A DNA stretch of 64,000 nt from Hyperoplus lanceolatus (Eukaryota; Chordata; Actinopteri; Uranoscopiformes; Ammodytidae): the NCBI GenBank assembly GCA_026929865.2, contig CM049400.1, positions 20,788,501 to 20,852,500 of the forward strand. Reading direction: 5' to 3'. A program made the position numbers and the translations under genes. A model generated the notes under the pieces. The model did not search any database and was not told the DNA's origin. It worked only from the letters and a program-made list of their open reading frames with translations. Positions within the stretch are counted from its first letter, which is position 1, and the number at the start of each line of letters is the position of its first letter. Positions 29,903 to 36,537 of the stretch are shown in pieces.

Positions 29903-31699
29903 GCCATAATTATTTTAAAAATATGACTAGTACTTACATTTCGGACAGATGGTGTCTCAGTCTTCCTGCACACAGTACAGTAAAACGGCTATAATCACAC
30001 TTTTAAATTGCCAACATTTGCTACACAGCGTAGGCTAGTGTAGATGGAAAGATAACCTTAAAAGCACTGTGAGTCAAAATCATGGTCAAAATCTGCATAA
30101 ACAACAAGCCTGTCTGGACGTGTGCAACACTTTTAAGCGTCCTCTGGAAACACTTACGGAAGCACTTCCGTCGTTTTTTCGAAGCACTTCCGTCGTGTTT
30201 TTGAAGCACTTCCGTCGTGTTTCGGGCTATTTGCAGCGTTTTTCTAAATGCTGCGCATGTGTTGTCAAATTGATGAAGATGTTTTCTTAATTTGCTTGCG
30301 TTTTGTCTTCTTGCATGTGTTTTCTGATGTTGCAGTGCCGTGAGCTCTCAGGGCCACCGTATCATAGAGCTAAGGGCCTGCTTCTCACTCAGCTCGAATC
30401 CAATTGATGTTTACCGGAATGTATGACGTTAAAAAAACAACACACCACTTATGGCATTATTATAAAAAGTACATGTTTGCTGAAATGTCTGTGAGGACAT
30501 TTTTACATACCAGCCAAACCTCCCTGGTAGCAATGACACAGAAAGATTGCTACGTGAACACATTCAAATGGGAGGTAAAAAGAAATGCAAAGTTACCCAA
30601 ACCAGAAAGACGAGTCGGATGGCCTTCACACAAAGGGACAGAGAAGAAGTACTGGGCCAGCTGAGCATGGGAGCACATGAAAAAGTTTTGAGTTACAAGT
30701 GGGGTGAGATGGAAACAATGGCAGCACAGAATAGAATAGATGCCCTGGGGAACCATCGGCAGGGCGTTTCAGACAGGCTTTCGACAAGTCACAGTTTGTT
30801 TGTTTTGTTCCCCCCAGATTGGCTGCCTTTTGTCCTTCAAAACAATATTTGCAAACACAAGCAACTAGTTCCATAAGTGAGAGAACAGAGTTGTAGTAGT
30901 AGTGTCATAAATAAGCACAACCTGGAGCGACTGCACTGGGACTTTGAAGGCACTGGGATGACTCATCTCCAAGCTTTAATGACCTGAGGAGCCTCATTTT
31001 AAAGCTTTGTAATAATGTGAACCAGAAGTATCCAAAGAAGTCCTTTGATGATAACAACATGTGTGTGATGCAAACTGAAGTGTCCCAAGGTCAAAGTTAA
31101 ACAGATCTAAACATTTACATATGTAGAACCAGGGCTGTACAGTGCGACAGTTTTGATCGCATTTGCTACTGAAATTGATCACGTGCGATGATGAATACGA
31201 CTATTCGCACTTGTGCGACAGGTTGATAATGAGGAGAGGCTGTCTTTGAAACACAGAGGACAGATGCACAACACTGCTTAGAGGGCTCTACATTAACACT
31301 GCGGGTAAATGAGTCTTAGGCAAGTAACTTATTGAGTCCACCCTCCACTTTGGCTGGTGAAAGATGTGTGCTCGGGATCTGTGCTCGTGCAGCGATTCTA
31401 GGTATAAAAACTTCACAGCTTTAACGGCAATTACCGGAAGGAGACGGCACATTACCGCAGTTAAGTTAGTGCATGTACAAACAGAACATATATACCTATA
31501 TGTATACTTATTTATTTAATAGGCTATATTTAATGTTTTAAAGTTTGGTTTTAATTAAAGCTGCAGTTGAGAGTTTTTTTACTGTACTATTTGGCAAAAC
31601 TGTCATAATAGCCATTCAGCTATATGTAGGTGAAGTGGTTTAAAAATATTTTTTCATCACTTTGCTCCCCCCTGCCTCTGTGTGCTGCCCCCCAAAATT

Positions 31700-31875
31700 G
31701 CCACCGCTCATGTTAATTTTGACCAATCAGAGCGAGGTCAGATTCTCCGTTCTTATTGGCTGTGGGACCTTGGCAACGACGTTGATGCGTCAGTTGCGTG
31801 AGCGTTCACGACCCTAGCAGTCTGACACTAGCCTACTGTTTGGTACTAGGCTACTACGGCGGACAGCGAGTAGCA
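31700..31875 (+). promoter_or_regulatory. Promoter-like region of the TTAA element (copy 1)
   Basis: Holds GACCAATCAGAGC (about 31728) and an inverted CCAAT box in TTATTGGCTG (about 31755), followed by a CpG-rich tract with TTGATGCGTCAG, just ahead of the open frame. The same features are kept in copy 2 at 45848-46002. Function is inferred from motifs and position. Confidence 0.45.
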
Positions 31876-32091
31876 ATGTCTTCACAAACAAACCCTCAAT
31901 TTACCATTCCCAGGATACCAACAACTAACACTGCTAAGACAGCAAAAAAACGAGGAAAGACGAATGTTGAAAAGTTAACTGCTGAAAGGGAGACGGAGAG
32001 AGCTCGAAAAAAAGTACACCGGCCATGTCTTCTTGCCCTATCACATCAAGACCTCTCTGACCGCGACCTCGTCCCCTTCCTCTGCCCCTAG
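31876..32091 (+). pseudogene. N-terminal open frame of the TTAA element (copy 1)
   Basis: Starts at the ATG 31876 (MSSQTNPQFTIPRI), with an in-frame extension back to 31798 that is probably untranslated. It continues through a basic, alanine- and threonine-rich stretch and a heptad-like ELTAERETERA segment, then 30 residues without likeness to it. The same product with two changes is encoded by copy 2, where one C-to-T change turns the Arg codon after ERA into a stop. Length is 71 residues here. I do not recognise the family. It may be the first exon of a transposase, with the GT at about 32012 as a candidate donor. Upstream lie CCAAT-type motifs. Confidence 0.45.
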
Positions 32092-32999
32092 GCTGCCTGC
32101 CGCTAGCAGCAGGACGTCCGCTGGCTCTATATAGCCCTCGACCTGTGCTCAGTGTTGCCAATATAGCGATTTTGTCGCTATATTTAGTGACTTTTCAGCC
32201 CCCCTGGCGACTTTTTTTTTCAAAACAGCGACAAGCGACAAATCTAGCTTTTTTTTCTGGTGTTATTGGTGACTTTTTTCGCCAAAGCAAGTATCACCTC
32301 TTCTCAACGAGCAGTGGGAGCCCTGACACGCAGCCCGCTCCTCGCGCAGCAGCCCCGAGCAGCCCCTCCCAGCTGCGGTCAGAGCAGGAGCATAGATAGT
32401 AGGAGATACACACACACACCTCTACACCTTTGCTGTTTCCCATTCATTGTGTACGGCAAAGAATCAGTGCCTTTGCGCCTATTCATTGTGGACGGCAAGA
32501 AAAAAAAAGATTTCGCGCATGCGCACTTGATTCTGTATTATTTAACATGTACGCAAATAAGCATAATTCTTTGTGCCTTTTTTACGTAAATGGTATGCCA
32601 CATAAGCCTTTACGTTACATATCATTCATGGACCAATTAAAATTGAGATATTACTAGACATTTACGCAGCTTAGGCCAACGTCATTACGTTGGCTATGAC
32701 ATACAGTATCTCAAAATAACCCCCTCATTTCTTCCATTTTTCTTTATATCTTTCATCACACACTGAATAAACACTTTGATAAATATACATTCATTTATAA
32801 CAGTGTAAATTTACTTCCCCTCAAATACTCGCCATTAATTCTAACTCACAAATGATACCCCCTTAGAAAGATCCAAATTCCCAAATTCAATATTTTGTTT
32901 TCCATCATTATTTTCTCCTCCTAACCCTCTTCATAGTTCACTAATTCACAGTTCACTGGAACCCTCTTCTACCCATTCATGAGACATCAAATTATATTA

Positions 33000-34353: not shown

Positions 34354-34894
34354 CATGGACATATAAAGAAATGGACACCGGATTGAATCACGGCGCCCAT
34401 TCATTCCTATGAAAGCTGCTCATTGGCGCAGAGACGCAACAAGGAAGTATAATCCGGAAATTCCATGCGGCCCGGAAGCATGACGTAGCATGGACGTAGT
34501 TGCACTATGGACCTATCAAGAAAGAGGGCGGCAAGCGTAGCGGACTGGAGGCGGGAGTAGAATCATTCTCGTTCTGTAGCATCTAGCCTGGCGAAAACAA
34601 ACTGAAAGCCGCTAAAAGCCGTTGGGCTAATAAAACGCTTGAGGTGGCGTTTTGAAATGAGAAAACTTCCATTTTAATAGTATATGGTCTAAAGATAAGT
34701 ATGAGCCTATGATTGATATCCAGAAATGTTTTGCAGAGACACAATGTTGTTCTTGTTCACCGCTTGTACTGTGTGGACAGGGAAATCTGCCTACGGGCCG
34801 CATGAAAATAAGCTCCACCCCTCACCATGCAATACCAATGGGTTGGCCACATGTCCATGCTGGCTGCTCGGAGACGGCACAGTCCTGGGGGCCT
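34354..34894. mobile_element. 541-bp insertion in the foldback's left arm
   Basis: Flanked by GGGAAAGTG at 34345-34353 and 34895-34903, and absent from the mirror arm near 36111. It starts CATGGACATATAAAGAAATG, a segment also found inside the hAT element at about 29293. Class is unknown; an 8-9 bp duplication would suit a hAT-type or similar insertion. Confidence 0.7.
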
Positions 34895-35409
34895 GGGAAA
34901 GTGTAGCTCCACCCGAAGCCACGCCCCGAACTCATTTCATTGGTCAGAATTGTAACCTACTCTGAATTTGTTGTCTTCTTTTTGTTTTACTGCCGGAGTT
35001 CACCTAGCGGTGAATAATAATACACAGTTTCCACCGGTTATGGTGCTAGTACACAGTAAAATACGTCAGTTTGTTAAGGGTCCCACGTGGCCAGGACGGT
35101 GGTAAAATGTAGATGTTGAGGTAGAATATGAATGAAGCAACGAAGCGTTGGGTACATCTTCCGAAATCCGTCTCTTTAATTCACAATTATCACAAGTAGG
35201 TCAATCACATACAAATATCAACTCTTATAAATGAAACACAAAAAGTTGAACTTTTATCTTAGGAGTCCTGGAAACAAATGCTTGTCTTTTCCTCTTAAAC
35301 GAAGCTGTAAATAGCCTTTACGTAGTGTCAGTTGGAGCCTTGTTGCAGCAGTGCAGGCTAATGCTAATTGTGTTCAGATTAATAAACCTATTGTATTGTA
35401 GCCTATCTC

Positions 35410-35611
35410 ATTCTGCGGCTGCACGCGATCGTTACTGTTCACTTGCGTGATCACAAAGTCACAGACGAGCCTCGTTAAATAGCCTAATATGAACATAGGC
35501 TATTTATGTCTGGTTGAAATGTAATTCTGCGGCTGCACACGATTGTTACGTTCATTTGCGTGATCACAAAGTCACAGACGAGCATCGATCGTTCAATAGC
35601 CTAATATGAAT
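35410..35611. repeat. Two-copy tandem duplication in the foldback loop
   Basis: Segments 35410-35493 and 35524-35611 share TTCTGCGGCTGCAC, TGATCACAAAGTCACAGACG and AGCCTAATATGAA in the same order, with a few substitutions. Confidence 0.8.
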
Positions 35612-36537
35612 ATATAAATTATATGATAATTAAAACTGTGATCACTAGAGGACAAGGGATCTGGTAATAAATCAATCAGGATCTAGAATGGAAACTGTCA
35701 CCTTATGTGTCAGACGTTAATGCCTTTCACCCCGCTTTTTAAAATGAGCTGTTTATTTTAATGTGGTGGCACTTTTTGTGTTTTATTTATAAGAGTTTAT
35801 ATTTGTATGTGATTGACCTACTTGTGATAATTGTGAATTAAAGAGACGGATTTTAGAAGATGTACACAAAGCTTTGTTGCTTCATTCATCTTCTACCTTA
35901 ACATTTTACCACCGTCCTGGCCACGTGGGACCCTTAACAAACCGACGTATTTTACTGTGTACTAGCACCATAGCCGGTAAAAAACTGTGTATTATTATTC
36001 ACCGCTAGGTGAACTCCGGCAGTAAAACAAAAAGAAGACAACAAATTCAGAGTAGGTTACAATTCTGACCAATGAAATGAGTTTGGGGCATGGCTTCCGG
36101 TGGAGCTACACTTTCCCCATGGGTCTGCAAATAGGTACTCTTGAGAGTGTTGGGAAAACAGCCGTTGGGATCCCAACGGCTGAAACTCTCAAGTGCAGCT
36201 TTAACAGAAGGACATTATAATAATAATTCTGAATCAGCAAAAAATTGCAATTGGCAGGTTAGATTCTTTTTTCTAAATTGCAATCAGTGCACCCCTATTC
36301 ATTTTTCTACAATTATTACTGCACACACTAGGATATCATATTAATTGTGAATCTCAAATGAGACCAGGATGACATGCTCAAAGGTAATTAGAGCAAAATG
36401 CAAGGGTTAACGTTATGCAAGTTTTCAATCATAGCCTACTTTGTGTGCTACCAAATTTATTTTTGTGCTACTGAATTTTTTGCTTGCTAGCACCAGTGCT
36501 ACCACCTAAAAAATAAGCGTACAGCCCTGTGTAGAAC

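Follow-up and report, generated by a model that had tools for sequence, protein, structure and literature searches.

Reading the insertion order of a nest of DNA transposons in the genome of Hyperoplus lanceolatus

The relative age of transposable elements can be read from which element interrupts which, and this transposon-in-transposon (TinT) principle is an established approach. Elements of the hAT type are recognized by an 8-bp target duplication and short terminal inverted repeats of the CAGGG type, those of the Tc1/mariner type by a duplication of TA. The locus discussed here lies in 64,000 nucleotides of Hyperoplus lanceolatus (assembly GCA_026929865.2, contig CM049400.1, positions 20,788,501 to 20,852,500 of the forward strand), the whole of which is called the window, and consists of a hAT-type element at 31130-36529 that holds a TTAA element, a Tc1-like palindrome, a foldback and a piece of 541 bp. 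A TinT analysis has been published under a title on primate Alu retroposons (PMC3014933). In the excerpts of the descriptions used, a TTAA target with AG as terminal bases is the pattern of Kolobok elements (PMC6004289), and arms of more than 100 bp with a 9-bp duplication are that of MULE and foldback elements (PMC5225508, PMC8277862).

The locus is very probably a nest of an ordinary kind, formed by several old, non-coding DNA transposons of the cut-and-paste type, arranged in four levels and representing five insertions. A nest at least four deep had been proposed in a sequence-only reading, and the ends and duplications on which that proposal was built were present where it had placed them or a base or two away. 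This applies to the hAT element with its 8-bp duplication, to the TTAA element inside it, to the Tc1-like palindrome and the foldback inside the TTAA element, and to the 541-bp insertion in the left arm of the foldback. The order of hAT, TTAA element, foldback and 541-bp piece holds by containment, by the duplications and by empty sites within the window, which join on both sides for the 541-bp piece and on the right side only for Tc1 and foldback. The proposal had also listed the foldback and the Tc1-like palindrome together as following the TTAA element; both do lie inside it, but their order relative to each other is unreadable. Positions 30900-36800 were read together with the region of a second copy of the TTAA element (45500-47300), the former region was compared by blastn with the whole window (40.7% G+C, zero N), and inverted repeats were scanned over 31000-36700, with 25 of 26 pairs listed. 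Judged by eye from the reading frames, the genes and repeats of the window have a teleost character.

The insertion of the 541-bp piece (level 4, 34354-34894) is the best-proven step of the nest. It is flanked by the duplication GGGAAAGTG at 34345-34353 and 34895-34903, and a single GGGAAAGTG stands in reverse complement, on the minus strand, at 36109-36117 in the right arm of the foldback; the sequence was found nowhere else in the window. By sequence comparison this single copy is the empty site, in which 36 bases across the join could be aligned with one mismatch, away from the join. No terminal inverted repeat was visible by eye at the ends of the piece. Folded as DNA, it gave a z of 0.52, with 71 of 100 shuffles folding at least as well, and it is therefore not a strong hairpin.

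The foldback (level 3b, 34320-36143) has a left arm formed by 34320-34353 and 34895-35246 and a right arm at 35771-36143. Over about 350 bp, the stretches 34895-35246 and 35771-36117 were 93.5% alike by blastn. Outward of the 541-bp insert, the palindrome extends for another 28 exact bases, GGGAAAGTG included (34326-34353 and 36109-36136), and the outermost six or seven bases of the arms pair poorly. Immediately outside the palindrome stands a 9-bp duplication, AGAGTGTTG, at 34311-34319 and 36144-36152, which is an addition to the sequence-only reading, where none was named for the foldback. AGAGTGTTG occurs only these two times in the 64 kb, counting either strand; a variant, AGAGCGTTG, is present once in the second copy of the TTAA element, at 47050, and is directly followed there by the same right flank. 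With terminal inverted repeats longer than 100 bp and a duplication inside the range of 8 to 10 bp, the foldback may be called MULE-like by structural analogy. Its arms differ at 16 of 346 bases, as compared with 28 of 902 for the two TTAA copies, which gives no evidence of a difference (p 0.23). In the loop (35410-35614), a unit of about 90 bp is present in two copies, 88% alike by blastn.

The TTAA element (level 2, 31559-36200) is flanked by TTAA at 31555-31558 and 36201-36204. Its termini, AGCTGCAGTTGAGAGTTT, are complementary at 17 of 18 bases, with AGCTGCA at both ends and hence the purine pair AG as terminal bases. The ends of piggyBac elements are different from these. Because the AG start and the TTAA match the pattern excerpted from PMC6004289, Kolobok-like seems a better name for this element than piggyBac.

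By blastn, the window yielded just two copies of this TTAA element. The second (45697-47106, plus strand) had been described as un-nested, which is correct in so far as it contains neither Tc1, foldback nor 541-bp insert. It is not a clean copy, with TTAT on its left and TTAA on its right edge, termini that pair at 15 of 18 bases, one segment in the opposite orientation to the first copy, and the 278 bp that adjoin Tc1 in the first copy missing. It also has a block of 251 bp of its own (46465-46715), absent from the first copy, with CCCGAG at both edges, which is mostly an inverted relative of the internal sequence of the TTAA element itself. Summed over three shared stretches, 28 of 902 aligned bases differ between the copies (3.1%), unevenly distributed as 21 of 765, 1 of 80 and 6 of 57.

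The Tc1-like palindrome (level 3a, 32704-34138) joins two Tc1 copies head to head, a partial one on the minus strand and the 3' half of another on the plus strand. TA stands on both sides, at 32702-32703 and 34139-34140, and the right one corresponds to a TA at 46882 of the second TTAA copy, where homology between the two copies restarts. One plus-strand piece of the palindrome matched the Tc1-type transposase domain DDE_3 above the cut-off (4.1e-08); minus-strand pieces matched DDE_3 (0.0041) and HTH_Tnp_Tc3_2 (1.3e-05), both below the cut-offs. The two arms are about 70% alike by blastn. In a global alignment, which is rich in gaps and flatters the arms, they differ at 55 of 418 bases, against 28 of 902 for the TTAA copies (p 3e-11). 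Since the arms have diverged so much further than the 3.1% between the two TTAA copies, the palindrome probably predates its entry into the TTAA element, or else was joined from two different Tc1 copies. Insertion ages at this locus cannot be judged by how far arms have diverged.

The outermost layer, the hAT-type element (level 1), measures 754 bp when its inserts are subtracted. The 8-bp duplication TGTAGAAC was found at 31122-31129 and 36530-36537, with one extra copy elsewhere in the window, at 15184. The CAGGG-type terminus CAGGGCTGTAC starts at 31130 and its complement ends at 36529, 11 of the first 12 bases and 12 of the first 20 being complementary. No second match to the parts of the hAT element was obtained within the window at E 1e-4 by blastn, which would place the second TTAA copy outside such a hAT element; on this comparison the hAT and the TTAA element are independent of each other. 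A composite of the two was rejected on the same ground, the TTAA element being present outside such a hAT element as well.

A chance origin of the two kinds of ends was assessed on 40 randomised versions of the 64 kb, generated by a first-order Markov model. The hAT-type signature, defined as an 8-bp repeat with 12-bp termini and at most one mismatch, occurred five times in the real window, and the TTAA-type signature, defined as 18-bp termini with at most one mismatch, seven times. Neither was seen in any of the 40 randomised windows and chance was rejected for both. The five hAT-type signatures comprise the present element, two elements that look like hAT (28690-29902 and 44908-45640), an internal symmetry of the present foldback and a fifth at 38399-46363. 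Five of the TTAA-type signatures fall within two foldbacks; the other two are the present element and another TTAA element (14397-15875).

Ten reading-frame pieces from the layers inside the hAT element were scanned against Pfam, and a transposase family was matched in the three palindrome pieces given above. No match was found in three further pieces of the palindrome or in one from the 541-bp insert, and no transposase match in one from the foldback loop. Two pieces of the TTAA element gave no transposase-family match and one chance-level match to IGF2_C (0.12). No intact transposase was thus seen in the scanned pieces, and the enzymes that moved the layers were therefore probably supplied from elsewhere. 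A stretch of the TTAA element that resembles a tRNA by eye found no support, with no tRNA gene in the window according to ARAGORN and no Rfam family at gathering score. When viral_contigs was searched for exact matches to patterns of 24, 20, 20 and 33 bases, taken from foldback, TTAA element, hAT element and 541-bp piece respectively, each pattern gave 0 matches. A literature search returned no title or abstract start concerning this nest, which is no proof of its being unpublished.

Several observations weigh against a simple nest of independent insertions. The hAT and TTAA steps are read from ends and duplications alone, with no empty site seen for either, and the second TTAA copy has TTAT rather than TTAA on its left. 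At the Tc1-like palindrome, the two ends match poorly by eye over their outermost 17 bases, and the arms align further in. Its left junction is unclean: the second copy has no equivalent of the 278 bp (32424-32701) that separate TTAA-element sequence from the Tc1-like end, and about 93 bp of the second copy are missing at this place. Aligned to that missing part on both strands, the 278 bp scored 16.0 against a shuffle mean of 16.3 and 15.0 against 15.9 (300 shuffles each), and homology is therefore not demonstrated. Left of the foldback, a segment of about 65 bp (34220-34284) is inverted relative to 46971-47037 of the second copy, with 87% identity by blastn and alignment, and the next 26 bp (34285-34310) have no clear equivalent there.

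A series of insertions very probably produced this arrangement. A short hAT element would have landed at TGTAGAAC, and a Kolobok-like element then at a TTAA within it. A Tc1-like palindromic element would have entered this Kolobok-like element at a TA and, earlier or later, a MULE-like foldback would have landed in it at AGAGTGTTG. The 541-bp piece would have followed in the left arm of the foldback, with duplication of GGGAAAGTG. Each step would consist of a transposase-mediated insertion and repair of the staggered cut, the enzyme class of the 541-bp piece being left unassigned.

Repair with template switching in palindromic DNA may have acted in addition to these insertions, without replacing them. 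It is quite possible, if somewhat short of an even chance, that the inverted segment, the inverted block in the second copy and perhaps also the 278 bp are filler which such repair copied from nearby or from other places. Gap filling of this kind has been proposed for animal DNA transposons in the excerpt of PMC8277862, and it would suit the inverted segment between the copies, the origin of most of the 251-bp block from inverted internal sequence and the replaced sequence beside Tc1. It leaves the duplications at the main insertions unaccounted for, however, and the 251-bp block, with its CCCGAG edges, could itself be an insertion. The segment left of the foldback may have been flipped, but loss of a different arm of an ancestral hairpin in each copy would serve equally, and two copies cannot decide on the ancestral arrangement. 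By extension, the interior of the Kolobok-like element might be a hot spot on which palindromic elements land repeatedly and in which template switching, driven by hairpins, flips or replaces short segments, hence the independent inverted blocks in both copies; we consider this rather unlikely.

A composite family, in which a Kolobok-like subfamily carries the foldback, or the 278 bp with the Tc1 palindrome, along with it, would reduce the number of independent insertions. Only two copies of the TTAA element were found in the window, and in the second one neither the inverted segment beside the foldback nor the 278 bp is matched in place, as such a family would have it. Yet a 9-bp duplication flanks the foldback itself, one variant copy of it stands at the corresponding position of the second TTAA copy, and the right edge of Tc1 falls at the TA where homology to that copy restarts, so that a composite is very doubtful. 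That the nest is partly an artefact of assembly, collapsed or misjoined at repeats, is scarcely credible in spite of the many repeated and palindromic sequences crowded together, as target duplications stand at the main boundaries, with lengths that fit the families named, and misjoins would not create these.

The nest of insertions in the hAT element has neighbours of similar kinds in the window. The further TTAA element at 14397-15875 is 1,479 bp long, with AG termini and a perfect inverted repeat of 22 bases including TTAA (TTAAAGAGCAACTTGCAGGTTA). A second large foldback occupies 27111-30361, its longest arm stretch being 154 bp at 96%, and contains the hAT-like element at 28690-29902 (duplication GCCATAAT, left terminus TAGGGATGCAC), thereby forming a second nest just upstream. 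Another hAT-like element, at 44908-45640, with termini TAGGGCTGTCAA and duplication CTTTTAAT, ends 56 bp before the second TTAA copy begins. Long reading frames on the plus strand at 40239-42649 resemble, by eye, the endonuclease and reverse transcriptase of a long interspersed nuclear element.

As a single locus, the nest is of value mainly for annotation, in that relative ages can be read for elements from several families within one genome. It also carries a warning that the divergence between the arms of a palindromic element should not be taken as its insertion age, because the arms of Tc1 have diverged from each other further than the two copies of the TTAA element around them. The flipped segments, if they recur in other copies, would document, on a small scale, natural rearrangement at transposon hairpins.

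Compared with known systems, the outermost layer resembles non-autonomous hAT elements in its 8-bp duplication and CAGGG-type terminus, with the difference that its terminal repeat is just 11 to 12 bases. The second layer shares the TTAA target and the AG terminal bases with the Kolobok superfamily and with miniature inverted-repeat transposable elements of the T2 type as excerpted from PMC6004289, but its terminal sequence AGCTGCAGTTGAGAG is absent from the Kolobok description in that excerpt, and the two pieces scanned showed no Kolobok transposase. With Tc1-like elements the palindrome has remnants of a Tc1-type transposase and the TA on both sides in common, although it is a head-to-head arrangement of two divergent partial copies and not a single gene-bearing element. 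The foldback is like MULE elements and the FB4 foldbacks of Drosophila, as far as these are described in the excerpts of PMC5225508 and PMC8277862, in having a 9-bp duplication and arms that exceed 100 bp, a likeness of structure. Finally, where the TinT analysis is, by its title, one of primate Alu retroposons (PMC3014933), the present one concerns DNA elements at a single locus, and what both have in common is that relative age is read from interruption.

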